Shown here one piece after another: positions 36,000 to 45,169 of a stretch of DNA of 64,000 nucleotides. Numbering within the stretch: the first letter of the stretch is position 1; every line of letters begins with the position of its first letter. The notes under the pieces were generated by a model. That model worked only from the letters and a program-made list of their open reading frames with translations, was not told where the DNA came from and made no database searches. This DNA is from Pedobacter sp. MC2016-05 (lineage in GTDB: Bacteria; Bacteroidota; Bacteroidia; Sphingobacteriales; Sphingobacteriaceae). Both the position numbers and the translations under genes were made by a program. Location: assembly GCF_026239735.1 (NCBI RefSeq), contig NZ_JAPIVT010000004.1, positions 1 through 64,000 on the forward strand, in the 5' to 3' direction.

Positions 36000-36743
36000 A
36001 TGAATCTAAAATGCGTTGTCATCGATGACGAACAACATGCGATTGAGGTACTTACAGACCATATAGCAGAAATGCCTGGACTAACAGTATTCAAGACTTT
36101 TACAAGTCCAGTTCAAGCCTTAACCGAAATTAGCATTGACGACGAGATAGATCTCCTCTTCATGGATATTGATATGCCTGGAATTAATGGCTTAGAACTT
36201 GCCAAAAATATCCGAGAGAAAGCTAAGTATTTAGTTTTCACTACCGCACATCCTGACTATGCTTTACAAGCTTTTGATGTTCAATCAGATCAATATCTAT
36301 TAAAGCCAATTTCATTTGCCAAATTTGCTTTAGGTATTGATAGAATTTTGAAGAAGGAGGCAAATAATGCCAAAGCTACTTCAAAAGATGCCGAACAGGT
36401 GGCGGCGCTTTATATCAAAGGCGACCACAAATATGCTTTTTCCAATATTGCTATTGATGAAATACTTTACATAAAAGCACTTCAGAATTATATTCAAATC
36501 ATTACCAAGGGTGAAACGCACACCACTTACCTTACACTAAAGGAGATTGAAAAAGCTTTAGAGAACCACGCATTTATTAGAGTTAATAAATCGAATATAG
36601 TTGCTAAAGCAGCAATCAAAAAGGTAGATGGAAATATAATCCGTCTTGTAAATAATGAAATGATTCAGATTGGCGAAGGCTACAAAGAAGCTTTCTTCGC
36701 CTACGTACAAAGTAGCTTATTGAAATCAAATAGAAGTCAATAA
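36000..36743 (+). CDS. LytTR-family response regulator
   Basis: 247 residues: a receiver domain (1-120) with acidic residues in VVIDDE, phospho-acceptor D56 in LLFMDIDMPG and K102 in LLKPIS, then a LytTR DNA-binding domain at about 140-240 (IDEILYIKALQNYIQI, LKEIEKALENHAFIRVNKSNIV). LytTR regulators bind direct repeats upstream of targets and usually pair with LytS/AgrC-type kinases; the matching kinase is at 37017-38138. Its stop codon directly abuts the 3' end of the small opposite-strand gene at 36744-36884. Confidence 0.93.
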   Translation: MNLKCVVIDDEQHAIEVLTDHIAEMPGLTVFKTFTSPVQALTEISIDDEIDLLFMDIDMPGINGLELAKNIREKAKYLVFTTAHPDYALQAFDVQSDQYLLKPISFAKFALGIDRILKKEANNAKATSKDAEQVAALYIKGDHKYAFSNIAIDEILYIKALQNYIQIITKGETHTTYLTLKEIEKALENHAFIRVNKSNIVAKAAIKKVDGNIIRLVNNEMIQIGEGYKEAFFAYVQSSLLKSNRSQ

Positions 36744-36884
36744 TTATACTTCAAAAATAAAACTTGTAACAACTGAATGGCTCATATCTCCGGTTGGATT
36801 AGTAGCGTAGTTATTTTTAGCTTTAATGTTTTTATAAACGAACACAGCTTTTTTTGTGATTTTTGAAGTGTTTTGAGTTTTCAT
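36744..36884 (-). CDS. Candidate RiPP or signal-peptide precursor (46 residues)
   Basis: Short ORF read from the sequence. It starts MKTQNTSKITKK, has a basic and aromatic middle (AVFVYKNIKAK), and a C-terminal part with NPTGDMSHSVVTS rich in Thr and Ser, ending FIFEV. It contains no cysteine, no double-glycine leader and no signal peptide. The N-terminal half is Lys-rich (leader-like); the C-terminal half has six Ser/Thr that a LanB enzyme could modify. It lies between a LytTR regulator and its kinase and 1.2 kb from a full-length LanB dehydratase. Codon use and composition differ from random ORFs only subjectively, so a chance ORF is possible. No known precursor family is recognised. Confidence 0.55.
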   Translation of the reverse strand: MKTQNTSKITKKAVFVYKNIKAKNNYATNPTGDMSHSVVTSFIFEV

Positions 36885-37016
36885 AATCTGATAAATTTAA
36901 TTGTTATTATTAATTTCTGTAAAGGTGCAACGTAAATTCATGTTCAACTATTTTTTTACACAAACACATGTTTTTAACAGATAAAAACCCATTTTAAGTA
37001 GATATAACGCTAAAAA

Positions 37017-38138
37017 ATGAACTTAAGAGCATTAAAAAACTTCTATAACATATATCAAATTCACCTTATAATTTGGAGTATTTATATCGTATATGAAGTG
37101 TTTGTGTTAGGACTTATCACTAACAAATTCAGAGAGCCTGGCGCTTATGTCTTAGTATATATAATTAATATAATCACTTTCTACTCCTATGCATATTTAT
37201 TAAAAAACATCTTAAACCGGGATAGTAAGGCGTATCGTTTCATCAAAATATTGGTGCTAATATCAATCATAATTTGTGGATACATTTTCTTAACCTATGC
37301 CTTCATAATATTATTTGAAAAACTCCAGCTACTCGAAGCTAATCCCAGCAGAAGCTTAGATAAGGAGTTCATACTGTCTTGTCTTTATAGATCTCTTTTG
37401 TATATCGGTTTTTCTACTGGTTATGTTTACATTTTAAAATCTTTTGAAGATAGAAAAAAGGTGGAGGCTTTGGAACGTCAAAGTCTCGTTACACAAATAG
37501 AAAAACAGGCTTTAGAGAATGATTTGGTTCAATCGCAAAATAACTTTCTTCGGAGCCAGATCAACCCTCACTTTCTGTTTAATACCTTAAATTTTATATA
37601 CAACGACGCCCGTAAAAAAGCACCAATGGCTGCTGATGCGATCATGAACCTAGCCGAAATGATGCGCTATGCTTTAAAGAGGCCAGAAGCATCGGAAATG
37701 GTTCCATTGAGTGAGGAAGTAGAACAAATTGAACACTTAATCAACCTTCATCAGCTCAGAACAGCAAATGCTATTAATTTAAATTTAGAGGTTAATGGTG
37801 ATTTGTTTGGCTTAAGGTTTCCGCCACTTATCTTATTAACCCTTGTAGAAAATATATTCAAGCATGGCAATGTGACTCACTCCACGCAACCGGCTATCAT
37901 TAAAATTGATTATGAGAACAATAATTTAAACATCAGCACCATTAATATGGTGAATGATAATAAAGGAAAAGAACATGAAAGTCACCACGTTGGTATCGAC
38001 AACATCAATAAAAGGCTAGCCAATTTTTACAAGGATGATTATATTTTCAGATACTACAAAGACCCGTTGAATAGATATATAACGGAAATAGATGTGCAGG
38101 TAATTAATCCGATGTCTAAATTAAACCTCAACCAATAG
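37017..38138 (+). CDS. LytS/YehU-type sensor histidine kinase
   Basis: 373 residues. Four membrane-spanning segments at about 15-35, 43-63, 76-100 and 122-141, then a linker coiled coil and a His_kinase domain with the phospho-acceptor H185 in SQINPHFLFNTLNFI, followed by an HATPase_c region with LVENIFKHG and HHVGIDNINKRL. It is the likely partner of the LytTR regulator at 36000. It reads toward the LanB gene and overlaps its 3' end by 11 bases. There is no large extracellular sensor domain; the signal would be read within or close to the membrane, as for AgrC- or YehU-type kinases. Confidence 0.93.
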   Translation: MNLRALKNFYNIYQIHLIIWSIYIVYEVFVLGLITNKFREPGAYVLVYIINIITFYSYAYLLKNILNRDSKAYRFIKILVLISIIICGYIFLTYAFIILFEKLQLLEANPSRSLDKEFILSCLYRSLLYIGFSTGYVYILKSFEDRKKVEALERQSLVTQIEKQALENDLVQSQNNFLRSQINPHFLFNTLNFIYNDARKKAPMAADAIMNLAEMMRYALKRPEASEMVPLSEEVEQIEHLINLHQLRTANAINLNLEVNGDLFGLRFPPLILLTLVENIFKHGNVTHSTQPAIIKIDYENNNLNISTINMVNDNKGKEHESHHVGIDNINKRLANFYKDDYIFRYYKDPLNRYITEIDVQVINPMSKLNLNQ

Positions 38139-40911
38139 CTCTTCTACGTTGAAGGTCCTTAAGTAAGAAATAATACATTACCATTTCATTCGTCCGTTGA
38201 TCTTTGTTGAACAATCGGTTAACATGCATGTGCATTAGATCAGTAAAGAGTTTTACTTTTCTGTTCCCGTCAGTTAATTTAAGTACGCCGATAAATGATT
38301 GCCTAAAACGGTCGAAATTTTCGTTTTGTTTTGGATCAAAATTTGGCGCAGTTTTATATTGTTGATATTGCTGGTTGAGTTTTTTGAAATCTGTCGCATC
38401 CAAATGATGCTCTTTATTGAATGAATCGGAAATCATTCTTGTTACTTTCAGCATCACTTCAGAATCGAAAACGCCAGCTTTTAACAGTTCATCTACCAAA
38501 TAAGAACACCATTTATACTTGGTAAAAGCATCTGTTTGCTGCTGCAACTGCGATAGAACAAAATCACTATCAATAGAGAAATGATTTTCAACATCCGAAA
38601 TGATTTCTGCTCCATATCTTTCCAACTCTCGCCGGTAGGTTTTTAATTGAAAATCTGAAACCAAACCACTCGCCATATAATCCTTCAGAAGATCGCCTAG
38701 CGCAGAAACCAATGCTTGTCCGTCTTCGTTGTTGTGCAGTAAAATCCTCAAACGCAAATGGTTTCCATTTTCATTGTACCTGATAAAAAACCACGATCTT
38801 ATCTGCGCTGAAAATTGATTTAAGAAAGATGGGATCACCCCAATTAACAATTCATCGGAACGCTGTTGATGGCAATAAATTTCGAAATATAGCCACTCCT
38901 TTCCCGGAAGAAATACCTTTTGAACAGGAATTGCATTATTACTGCTAATTTCTGTTTTTTTGTAAATGCTATTGTTATGATACAGGTTTAAAATAAATTG
39001 ACTTACATAAGGACTTTGCGCCTGATTTACAATAACATCATTTTTGGGCAAGATGACTTCCTCTAAATATAATTTATTCTGCTTTTGGATAAATTGAAGA
39101 AAAGCATTCAAATCCTCATCACTATCTAAACCAAAGCATAAAGTTTGATCTGACAAACCCGCTTTAAAGTACTTGCTTACTCCGATTTGCGTAAGATAAG
39201 AACGACAATCTTCCATAGAGACGGCTGTTTTATTGGGGTAGAAATGTGTTTTGCTTACTCGCCATTTTGCACCGCTTAATACAATATTATGAAACTGAAA
39301 GCGAGGATAAAAGTCCAGATCGGGAAAGATACTATCAAGGGATAGTGATAGGGAAGTTTGCAGACCCTGATGTTGCAAATCGCACAAGAGCCTAAACACC
39401 GACAAATCTGACCGGGTGTAATTATAAGCCGAAGCCATGCGGGGAATAAGCCTTTTATTTAAGCTCTTTGATCTAAGAATGACTTCGTTATTACTCACCG
39501 AAATTTGAATATCACCTAGTGAAAGAGGTGCTGATGATATATCGAAATTCAGTATGGATAACTGGTGCCCGTAAATCTGCTTTCTACGATTGATATTATC
39601 CACATTGGTTTCAACGAGGTAGGCAACATCAAAAAAAAGCACCTCCGGGTTTGCATTTTGCTCAATGGCCGAAGTTTCTACGCAAAACCGTTCTACAGCT
39701 TTATCGGCGATAGAAAAGCGCCCGGTTAAAGCATTTGCCGTTACACCACCAATTTGATCAACACAAATTAAATCATCCGCTAACGACATCAAAAAGCTAA
39801 ATGAGTTTGGCAGAATGCTTTCACTTTCATTTGTTTCAAACGCAAGCTTATTCAAATAAATAGGCTCCTTGTTTTCAAAACCAGCTACAGAAAGTTTGGT
39901 TTTTAATGTTGATTTCAGATCTTGTTTGTCTTCAGCATTCTTTTTCTTCGAATTAAACTGCGCTACAAAATCATCTTCGCTTACCTGCTCCAATTCATCG
40001 TAGCCCACACCCATTTCAGGGTCGAGTGCGATGGAAAGCGGAACTTCCTGCTGATCGAATTTATTCTTGAATCTCGAAATAAAGCTTTTTAGCGCTTCAC
40101 GTTCATCAGATTGCAAGATTTTCGATAAAAGATCGATCAGTGTCGGTATCGGCTTCAATAAACGCTCATCTAAACCGCCAACAATTACTTTTCTTTCTGC
40201 AATTAAATATTTTGGGAGATTGCTGTCATCGATTCCAATTCTTTCGAAATAATCTTCCCCTATCACATTAGGATCGAACTCCGTAAAAAGAAGTTGGATG
40301 GAGTGCATATCCTGAAGCAATTCTAAAAATTCTACCTTACCCGCTTCATCTACACCCAGCGTGTTAATCAAATCATTTACCGCAATCGGTTTGGCACATG
40401 ATTCGAGAATTTGCATTACAGATTCATTTTGATCAATCTCTGCCAGTTCAAAAACCCCTTCCGTGCAGGCAATATACCTGATGCTGTTGATTGTTGAATA
40501 ATAGCTAGTGTTGCTGAACAGCTGAACGTTATCAGCCATCAATTTCTCGAAATCAAAATGAAGTTCATTCCGATATGGCCAATCAATAAACTGATGTACA
40601 ATCTGCTCATTGTTTACAATGATTTTGCTTTCGCTTTCATTAAAGGCATTTGCCAAAAAGCTGAAACTTGCAAATGTGCCATAGGGTGTTGAGCGATATT
40701 TCGCCCGGTTAAAATATTTCCAAACTGTGAAAAAAATCTTTGGCGGCAGGTTTTTCAGTTCATGAGCTTCTACGTCTTTTATGGTTTCGTAAAAGGTAGA
40801 TGATGAAATGGAAATGGCTTTTTTAAGTTCATCCCAACTACTTTCAAGATCAGCTTGATATGAAAATTTCGGCGTTCTGAAAATAATGGAGGGATGAATC
40901 AGGGGTTTCAT
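38128..40911 (-). CDS. LanB-type lantibiotic dehydratase, full length and apparently orphan
   Basis: 927 residues, the size of class I lanthipeptide dehydratases. The N-terminal glutamylation domain has RSTPYGTFASF at 73-83, the family's R-x-T-P-[FY]-G site. The C-terminal elimination domain runs from about 672: WLYFEIYC, the WFFIRYNENGNHLRLR string at about 707-722, YRRELERYG at 759-767 and HMHVNRLF at 894-901. Established family chemistry: Ser/Thr are glutamylated from glutamyl-tRNA and then eliminated to dehydroamino acids. No lanC, peptidase or exporter gene is adjacent. Upstream is a 115-base gap without a clear promoter; an AATCTTTG string on the minus strand lies near 40943. Candidate substrate: the 46-residue ORF at 36744. 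Confidence 0.88.
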   Translation of the reverse strand: MKPLIHPSIIFRTPKFSYQADLESSWDELKKAISISSSTFYETIKDVEAHELKNLPPKIFFTVWKYFNRAKYRSTPYGTFASFSFLANAFNESESKIIVNNEQIVHQFIDWPYRNELHFDFEKLMADNVQLFSNTSYYSTINSIRYIACTEGVFELAEIDQNESVMQILESCAKPIAVNDLINTLGVDEAGKVEFLELLQDMHSIQLLFTEFDPNVIGEDYFERIGIDDSNLPKYLIAERKVIVGGLDERLLKPIPTLIDLLSKILQSDEREALKSFISRFKNKFDQQEVPLSIALDPEMGVGYDELEQVSEDDFVAQFNSKKKNAEDKQDLKSTLKTKLSVAGFENKEPIYLNKLAFETNESESILPNSFSFLMSLADDLICVDQIGGVTANALTGRFSIADKAVERFCVETSAIEQNANPEVLFFDVAYLVETNVDNINRRKQIYGHQLSILNFDISSAPLSLGDIQISVSNNEVILRSKSLNKRLIPRMASAYNYTRSDLSVFRLLCDLQHQGLQTSLSLSLDSIFPDLDFYPRFQFHNIVLSGAKWRVSKTHFYPNKTAVSMEDCRSYLTQIGVSKYFKAGLSDQTLCFGLDSDEDLNAFLQFIQKQNKLYLEEVILPKNDVIVNQAQSPYVSQFILNLYHNNSIYKKTEISSNNAIPVQKVFLPGKEWLYFEIYCHQQRSDELLIGVIPSFLNQFSAQIRSWFFIRYNENGNHLRLRILLHNNEDGQALVSALGDLLKDYMASGLVSDFQLKTYRRELERYGAEIISDVENHFSIDSDFVLSQLQQQTDAFTKYKWCSYLVDELLKAGVFDSEVMLKVTRMISDSFNKEHHLDATDFKKLNQQYQQYKTAPNFDPKQNENFDRFRQSFIGVLKLTDGNRKVKLFTDLMHMHVNRLFNKDQRTNEMVMYYFLLKDLQRRRAIG

Positions 40912-42595: not shown

Positions 42596-43255
42596 ATGAA
42601 CACTAACGAACTCCTCTCTGAACTCAGGAAGTTTGTACTTATAAAGTCGGGATTAAAAAATATAGATCCTTCTCACTGTAAGCTAATTTCTGAGTATATA
42701 TTTCAAGAAACTAAAAACTATGTTAGTGAAACCACTATCAAAAGGTTTTTTGGCTTCGCAAACACCCAACACAAATTTTCTTTGTTTACTTTGAGCAGCT
42801 TATCACAATACATAGGCTATTCAGACTGGAATACATTCTGTAAGGAAAAAGAAACTCAAGTTTCAGCTGAACAAAGCACCTGGGAAACACTCAAATTAAA
42901 AGCGAAGTATATCAGTGAGATTGCACTGGTTTCAAAGAAAAATAATTCAGGCATTCCATTCGTATACACAGCCAATAGAAGTTTCTATTATCCTGATTTT
43001 GATTATTTTTTAAATAACGATTATCAGTTTACAACTTTGAGTGCTTTGCCCGGCCAAGGTAAATCCATCCTACTGGCACATTTGGTTCACCGCTTTTTTT
43101 ATTCGGAACAAGCATTGTATAAAAATGATATTGTTTTACTGATGAACGTGAATAGTATCAATACGATTCTCCGAGATGGAATAACGCTAAAAGAATGGTT
43201 TTTAAAGGAATTTAAATTTGAAAGCGTTAACGATTTAATCAGTTTTCAAAGTTAA
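42596..43255 (+). CDS. N-terminal fragment ORF of the split NTPase
   Basis: 219-residue ORF as the sequence stands: the helical N-terminal domain, a linker and the Walker A loop GQGKS, ending at the premature stop after NDLISFQS. It lacks Walker B, so by itself it should not hydrolyse ATP. Confidence 0.6.
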   Translation: MNTNELLSELRKFVLIKSGLKNIDPSHCKLISEYIFQETKNYVSETTIKRFFGFANTQHKFSLFTLSSLSQYIGYSDWNTFCKEKETQVSAEQSTWETLKLKAKYISEIALVSKKNNSGIPFVYTANRSFYYPDFDYFLNNDYQFTTLSALPGQGKSILLAHLVHRFFYSEQALYKNDIVLLMNVNSINTILRDGITLKEWFLKEFKFESVNDLISFQS

Positions 43256-43591
43256 TCCAGAAAAAAAAGAGGGCCGGTTTATATTAATCGTTGATGGAAT
43301 TGACGAATTTCTCACCAAGACAGAATATTTACAAACATTTATAGATTTTTTATACAGCATAGAAGAAAACAACTTCCTAAAAATGGTATTTGGTTTACGA
43401 ACCAATAGTTGGATTAATCTGCAACCTGTTATAACAGGCTCGGCTTTTTTAACAAAGAGTTGGTATAATGGCTTGTTTACGATCTTGATGTACTTAGCAA
43501 TGTTCCGCCGCTAAATACCGAAGAGATATTAAATGTATTAAGCCAGCTTGAAGATAAAACGGTTATTCAGGATGAGGTAAGCCCCGCCCTC

Positions 43592-45169
43592 TTGACGCAA
43601 TTTAAAACGCCGTTTTGGCTGCAAGTATATTATCAATTAAAAAAAGATAATCTTGCCCTCGAATTGAATAATACGCTTCTCTGTTATGAGATTATTAACT
43701 TTTTCTTAGAAAAGAAAATCTTTTTAGCGAAAAAAAGTACCGAGAAAATATATCTGTTAAAAAAAATAAGCGGAAGTATATCTAAAGGAAATAAAGGTCT
43801 TCGTGTGGCTAAAGAAGCTATTCTTGACATTGTAAATCAATATCCTGATGCTTATCAAGAACTGTTGTACGATGGTATTCTAATTGAAGAAAAGCGGCTT
43901 AGCACTGCAATACCCACAGAAATTGTTCGCTTTTTGGACGATGATATCTATACCTATTTCATTTTTATTCAAATTACCGAACGCTTTAATTACAAACCAG
44001 GCAAGGATTTTTTTGAATACATCTTAGCAACCTTTCTGCAAGGAACAGTATTAAGATATCACATTTTAAACTGGGCTATTCGCTTCTGTATCAATAGAAA
44101 TGAAATTTCTGAGTTAAAAAACATCCTAAAACTGTCATTTACGAATGAAGAAAAAAACATGTCGTTTGATTTCATTTGCAATGTTTCGAAATATGAGCTT
44201 AGCAAGCCCAACTCAAACTTCAATAAACAAAGTATCGACTTAAATTTTATTGATATTTTGGCTGCAGGCCGAACGATGAGTAAACTTTACAAGGAAACTA
44301 TTAAAACTATTTCGGATAATGTATTAAATGAAGATGTCCAGATCATGCTATTGGTTATCGAATGTAATATCGCCTTAATTGATATCGACAAATCTTCTTT
44401 GATCAGTACAATGCATACACTTAAACGCCATTACAAGAGATTGAGTGAACTATTCCCCATAAATCCGTACGACATCATTTTATATTTCCACAACAACCTG
44501 TTAGGCAAACCACATGAAAGTAAAACACTCGAAGATAAAATTATCAGGCTATGCCAAAAAATTGATGAGAGTGAACCTCTGAGCAACAAATTAATTACTA
44601 CCCCCGAAATTCTGGCCTATCGATTAGTTTTATTGGCTTTATTCGCACAGAAAAATTATGCTGAGTGCCACCGCTTTATTATGGCTATTCTAACTAAATA
44701 TCCTAATATCTTTACTGTACGCCATTCGGTCTTTTCTCCGTTCCTACTATTGCATTTGGGCCATACCTATCTTAAACTTAACTATTATAAGAAGGCTAAA
44801 AGAGTTTTAGAATTTATGGAGAAAGTGATAGAATGCGACTATACTTACTACACCAATTTTATTAGCGTAGGTTTTAGTTTATTCAAGGCGAGCTTTTACA
44901 ACTACACAGACAATTATGAACAAGCAGTTACCGAAATAGAAACAGGGTTGAAAATGGCCTTTAAAAATGATTTTATAATTTACGAAGTTTCATTGCTTCT
45001 GCTAAAAATAGATGTGTTGAAGCATTGCGATAAACCCGAAGAGGTATCAAATGCAATAAAAGAATTATTTAAATTTATATCGATAAACAAAATTTCGATG
45101 CCAGAGTATGCCAACTTGAATAACTTCGAATTCGAACAATCATTTAAGATTTTAAAGTCTTATAAATAA
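43592..45169 (+). CDS. C-terminal fragment ORF of the split NTPase
   Basis: 525-residue ORF as the sequence stands; the frame is actually open from 43469. All-helical, with several TPR-like pairs near the end (HLGHTYLKLNYYKKAKRVLEFME, in part, at about 390-415). There is no start signal before the ATG at 43592, so it is probably not translated alone if the gene is broken. Confidence 0.6.
   Translation: MTQFKTPFWLQVYYQLKKDNLALELNNTLLCYEIINFFLEKKIFLAKKSTEKIYLLKKISGSISKGNKGLRVAKEAILDIVNQYPDAYQELLYDGILIEEKRLSTAIPTEIVRFLDDDIYTYFIFIQITERFNYKPGKDFFEYILATFLQGTVLRYHILNWAIRFCINRNEISELKNILKLSFTNEEKNMSFDFICNVSKYELSKPNSNFNKQSIDLNFIDILAAGRTMSKLYKETIKTISDNVLNEDVQIMLLVIECNIALIDIDKSSLISTMHTLKRHYKRLSELFPINPYDIILYFHNNLLGKPHESKTLEDKIIRLCQKIDESEPLSNKLITTPEILAYRLVLLALFAQKNYAECHRFIMAILTKYPNIFTVRHSVFSPFLLLHLGHTYLKLNYYKKAKRVLEFMEKVIECDYTYYTNFISVGFSLFKASFYNYTDNYEQAVTEIETGLKMAFKNDFIIYEVSLLLLKIDVLKHCDKPEEVSNAIKELFKFISINKISMPEYANLNNFEFEQSFKILKSYK

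Follow-up and report, generated by a model that had tools for sequence, protein, structure and literature searches.

A small gene between a regulator and its kinase

What is encoded by a reading frame of 46 codons that lies between a LytTR-type regulator and a histidine kinase, next to a lanthipeptide-type dehydratase? The question arises in a window of 64,000 nucleotides of Pedobacter sp. MC2016-05, which is the whole stretch of DNA analysed here. The original prediction posed two alternatives for the frame (36744..36884, minus strand): a substrate of the dehydratase LanB, or a signal read by the adjoining kinase. Comparative evidence supports both together, and the frame is likely to encode the precursor of a cysteine-free RiPP pheromone that would be dehydrated by LanB and sensed by the flanking kinase.

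The neighbours are as had been claimed. Pfam models recognise a LytTR-type response regulator of 247 aa (36000..36743, plus strand; Response_reg and LytTR), which is an invariant neighbour in orthologous loci, a histidine kinase of 373 aa (37017..38138, plus strand; His_kinase PF06580), and LanB, a full-length glutamyl-tRNA-dependent Ser/Thr dehydratase of 927 aa (38128..40911, minus strand; Lant_dehydr_N/C), whose gene and that of the kinase share 11 bp at their 3' ends. The frame does lie between regulator and kinase on the opposite strand, but it does not fill the 273-bp gap as described; it takes up 141 bp and leaves a divergent upstream region of 132 bp. Nor does it begin one base past the regulator stop, since it is the frame's own stop codon that abuts that stop. 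It consists of ATG plus 46 codons and a stop, and its product, MKTQNTSKITKKAVFVYKNIKAKNNYATNPTGDMSHSVVTSFIFEV, contains no Cys. This absence holds for the window precursor and not as a rule of the family, because 10 of 144 homologues do contain Cys.

The reality of the gene had been made to turn on homologues and on codon-position bias, and both are present. At E<=0.001, a single-sequence search was positive in 40 of the 99 Pedobacter genomes, with homologues of 78% identity (E about 1e-19) in other genomes, and alignments gave a median dN/dS of 0.087 over 232 homologue pairs, with dN below dS in every one. Given this ratio and these homologues, the 46-codon frame is, on comparative grounds, a real gene under purifying selection at the protein level. 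The collected loci hold 112 homologous ORFs, and tandem precursor arrays are frequent, with up to seven or eight copies. In two loci (L031:8344-9596 and L051:8450-9705) the tandem copies are nearly identical and spaced by about 150 bp, which suggests recent expansion and contraction; one L031 copy runs into unresolved bases.

The family alignment divides the precursor into a leader (residues 1-23; 36816-36884, minus strand) and a variable, Ser/Thr-rich core (residues 24-46; 36747-36815, minus strand). The leader of the family is K-rich with the motif [KR]-T-[VL]-F-[VI]-[YF]-K, represented here by K-x-x-K-K-x-V-F-V-Y-K, and the core of the family carries a T-[ND]-P-T motif. In loci with LanB, Ser and Thr together account for 31% of core residues and 16% of those in the leader. 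The ORF matched no Pfam or NCBIfam model; the NCBIfam L1a leader model NF038153 gave no match to it up to E 1 and none in the genome, and L1a ancestry of the leader was rejected at a non-significant hhalign probability of 1.8%. Neither a GG site nor a signal peptide was recognised in the precursor.

Conservation and distribution of the locus

The window and 40 further loci (L022-L061, the last on a short contig) form a set of 41 orthologous loci. In all 41 the gene order is regulator, one or more peptide genes on the opposite strand, kinase and LanB, so that these homologues keep their LytTR/kinase and LanB neighbours, and the same order recurs in most of the more divergent loci, mostly with LanB. 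Within the genus, LanB is found in 40 of 40 peptide-positive genomes, and the peptide in none of 19 LanB-negative genomes (Fisher p 1.5e-5, uncorrected for phylogeny).

Among paralogues, loci with regulator, peptide and kinase and no adjacent LanB are common. The source genome has three of them, on contigs C17, C21 and C22, and one LanB in all. The locus on C17 is cut at its kinase by the contig end and that on C22 lies near one. The part missing from the C17 locus may be the kinase fragment at C58:23-763, both lying at contig starts.

Searching the whole phylum with the profile contributed a single genome from beyond the family (G431), in which the match has three internal stops. Ten loci that had no profile-detected peptide were then inspected by position, one of which (L213) belongs to another family, with shuffled regions as control. 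A divergent, K-rich ORF with a Ser/Thr tail lies by the kinase start in 9 of the 10, versus 20% of the shuffled regions; because these Thr-rich ORFs were recovered by position, the short profile probably misses distant members.

Two observations concern other RiPP clusters. At L199:13547-15629 a LytTR-peptide-kinase locus adjoins a LanB/LanC cluster whose GG-leader precursors contain Cys; it looks as though the signalling module can be joined to RiPP clusters of other kinds. Upstream of kinases that belong to LanC-type lanthipeptide clusters in L200 and L201 (at 13952 and 3059, respectively) lie near-identical divergent ORFs, MKNQ(V/I)KVSLPQIEVKQIQILNRSMSAKTMVFNQRG...PTETV(V/I)TSTLTGI, which may belong to this peptide class as a distant member. 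Elsewhere in the window, an ORF of 219 aa, weakly similar to STAND NTPases, is followed by a 525-aa TPR-like ORF (43592-45169), the pair spanning 42596-45169 on the plus strand; they could be a single gene interrupted as a pseudogene or by a sequencing error.

LanB and the chemistry of the product

NisB aligns across most of LanB. Its residues of glutamylation and elimination R14, Y80, R83, R87 and T89 correspond to LanB R12, Y66, R69, R73 and T75, and R784, R786, E823, R826 and H961 correspond to R720, R722, E762, R765 and H894; for NisB R786, E823 and R826 we assume functional roles. The ten equivalents are conserved in 67 homologues and invariant except for T75 (66 of 67). For Y80, R83, R87, H961 and others of NisB there are mutational data (PMC4341554). 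As judged by alignment, the residues on which glutamylation and elimination depend are retained in LanB. Together with the presence of LanB in 41 of 41 loci and a leader whose divergence tracks LanB (see below), this supports the claim, made from sequence comparison, that the peptide is a LanB substrate.

The source genome (99.97% complete) has no match to LanC (PF05147) and none to a C39 peptidase, and at the locus no exporter, leader protease or immunity gene was identified; no dedicated processing or export protein of the AgrB or peptidase-ABC kind occurs among the locus neighbours examined. Since neither LanC nor a C39 peptidase is detectable and the precursor has no Cys, the product is expected to be a linear peptide with dehydroamino acids (Dha/Dhb). 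The suggestion that a precursor without Cys would give a linear rather than a lanthionine-bridged product fits a genome without detectable LanC, and an ordinary lanthipeptide was rejected on the same two grounds. Other clusters in the genus combine LanC and C39 transporters with a LanB of about 1050 aa and with GG-leader precursors that contain Cys.

Core and sensor, leader and LanB

AlphaFold (mean pLDDT 82.5) predicts helices in the kinase at residues 3-35, 41-67, 74-102 and from 116 onward, followed by the kinase core. Residues 1-145 (37017-37451, plus strand) are taken as a hypervariable four-helix membrane sensor, the kinase half being conserved. The best Foldseek matches in the PDB are kinase domains, headed by GanS and with AgrC among those that follow, and from a predicted model these would support the kinase assignment only.

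The nearest relative, Pedobacter sp. Leaf41, carries the closest LanB (95% identical). HtpG is 99% identical between the two strains, and LytTR and the kinase half are each 100% identical, while kinase residues 1-145 are only 42% and the peptide 72% identical. On the DNA, the core, the intergenic region and the sensor form a hypervariable island (36741..37440, no strand assigned) of 45-75% identity between flanks of about 95%, within which a leader stretch is better conserved (90%). In the sensor, silent sites have reached saturation (pS 0.815, compared with 0.08-0.20 for the flanks), which makes it probable from the sequence comparison that the core-sensor segment was exchanged by recombination; the contrast of leader and core in silent sites rests on few sites.

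Rank partial Mantel tests over 39 loci, with other proteins (HtpG, LytTR, the kinase half and LanB) as controls and with shared ancestry corrected in part, separate the two halves of the precursor. Core divergence follows that of the sensor (partial r 0.42, p 0.0005) and LanB weakly (0.15, p 0.03); leader divergence follows that of LanB (0.32, p 0.001) but not that of the sensor (0.13, p 0.07). Both parts are weakly associated with LytTR (0.19 and 0.26). Across the loci compared, then, the leader half varies with LanB and the Ser/Thr-rich core with the membrane sensor of the kinase. Joint exchange is conceivable, as core and sensor lie close to each other; the leader, which sits between them on the DNA, behaves differently, and simple linkage does not for that reason explain the pattern.

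Individual loci point the same way. The closest counterparts of the window's sensor belong to loci that share its '..TSFI' core type, despite a LanB identity to these of only 56-59%. Among pairs with LanB identity >0.78, mean core identity is 0.91 for the 15 with similar sensors and 0.64 for the 75 with dissimilar ones. Core identity nevertheless exceeds 0.7 in several pairs of loci whose sensors are unlike. In nine fresh loci the core is on average 0.83 identical to that of the sensor-nearest locus and 0.64 to that of the LanB-nearest one; in these nine sequences the nearest sensor is the better predictor of the core. That the core tracks the sensor and shares one hypervariable island with it supports the claim that the peptide is a ligand of the kinase.

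Elements upstream of the peptide gene

A conserved element (36952..36985, minus strand) in the divergent region contains candidate LytTR binding repeats with a period of about 21 bp: 38 of 41 upstream regions contain GTGTAAAAA, and 21 bp is the best repeat period. A tandem G[TC]GTAA pattern was found in 0 of 41 regions of the LanB group, the 21-bp repeat being differently spelled. A second conserved element, GCACCTTTACA (36918..36928, minus strand), is probably the promoter core and lies upstream of most orthologous loci. With up to 3 mismatches the full upstream element has only one match in the genome (control, 0), and a wider regulon was rejected on account of this single match. Because the element is conserved, repeats at 21 bp and is matched once in the genome, we infer that it may be a dedicated LytTR target with positive autoregulation, which the observations fit.

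Competing explanations

A nisin-like antimicrobial RiPP, for which the two-component system would be the autoinduction arm only, is rather improbable. Autoinduction of the nisin type is established and was counted in its favour, as were the presence of LanB, the common tandem precursor arrays, and the LytTR-peptide-kinase locus beside the LanC lanthipeptide cluster in L199. Yet the genome has no LanC and no C39 transporter, no immunity gene was noted by the locus, the LanB-less copies retain kinase and regulator, and the core varies with the kinase sensor.

The peptide might also be read by the kinase without modification, LanB having another substrate or being a passenger. The common LanB-less loci, three of them in the source genome, would suit such a signal, which is nevertheless unlikely in view of a LanB with conserved active-site residues in 41 of 41 orthologous loci and of leader divergence that tracks LanB. 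Moreover, each peptide-positive genome of the genus has a LanB, and modification in trans is therefore possible.

Very unlikely is an intracellular small protein, never exported, that binds and inhibits its own kinase. It would agree with the lack of a recognised exporter or signal peptide and with a gene divergent from and adjoining that of the kinase, but the peptide varies with the membrane sensor rather than with the cytoplasmic half of the kinase (partial r -0.16), and the RiPP-like division into leader and core, as well as LanB, would be left unexplained. A chance ORF in a divergent promoter region, to which the missing Pfam or NCBIfam match might point, is hardly credible and was rejected, given homologues at E about 1e-19, dN/dS of 0.087 and tandem duplications.

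The LanB-modified pheromone remains the preferred reading, against which count the LanB-less paralogues, including the three in the source genome, and the few homologues with Cys. Given the many paralogous loci without an adjacent LanB, modification by this enzyme need not be essential. In the proposed pathway LanB would bind the leader and dehydrate Ser/Thr of the core to Dha/Dhb using glutamyl-tRNA, and the product, with no Cys and no LanC, would stay linear. A protease and an exporter would release the core, which would bind the four-helix sensor of the kinase of its own cell; the LytTR regulator might then activate the divergent precursor promoter through the repeats of ~21 bp, resulting in autoinduction. 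Between strains, core and sensor would change as a pair, in the manner of agr specificity groups.

Relation to known systems

The arrangement resembles agr (AgrD-AgrC-AgrA) and ComC-ComD-ComE in that a small peptide gene adjoins a membrane histidine kinase and a LytTR regulator, and in that peptide core and sensor are hypervariable and co-vary, in contrast to a conserved kinase half and regulator. Unlike these Gram-positive systems, it resides in Gram-negative Bacteroidota, has a PF06580-type kinase with four predicted sensor helices, and has no dedicated processing or export protein among the Pedobacter locus neighbours examined. In comparison with agr specifically, LanB stands in place of AgrB, there is no thiolactone (no Cys), and the peptide gene is divergent from that of the kinase.

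With class I lanthipeptides (nisin, the Bacteroidota clusters with L1a leaders, and pinensins) it shares the NisB-type residues of LanB and a precursor of leader and core; it differs in a genome without LanC or C39 transporter, a core without Cys, a leader without GG, and a LanB of about 930 rather than about 1050 aa. In the pinensin type LanB is split into separate glutamylation and elimination proteins, whereas the Pedobacter enzyme is a single protein of 927 aa with both domains. As in NisK/NisR autoinduction, a LanB-modified peptide may serve a two-component system as its ligand, with the differences that the regulator is of the LytTR type, sensor and core covary, and the Pedobacter system has no cyclase.

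The open-access literature, represented mostly by titles and abstracts, yielded no account of a peptide pheromone with LytTR regulator and kinase from Bacteroidota or of a LanB product without Cys that serves as a signal. Lanthipeptide mining either drops ORFs without Cys in the core (PMC7268733) or begins from LanC (PMC3091789), and would for this reason miss such a peptide family by design. HK-LytTR(-LanB) modules with Thr-rich divergent ORFs are also present in other genera and in another family, and these, together with the LanB-less paralogues, suggest a large receptor-ligand superfamily. Somewhat favoured, on balance, is a class of peptide signalling in Bacteroidota in which cysteine-free, LanB-dehydrated pheromones are encoded divergently from a LytS-type kinase and exchange of core and sensor creates strain-level specificity groups. 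The pairing of core and sensor would represent natural specificity groups, and makes recognition of ligand by receptor directly testable by swaps.
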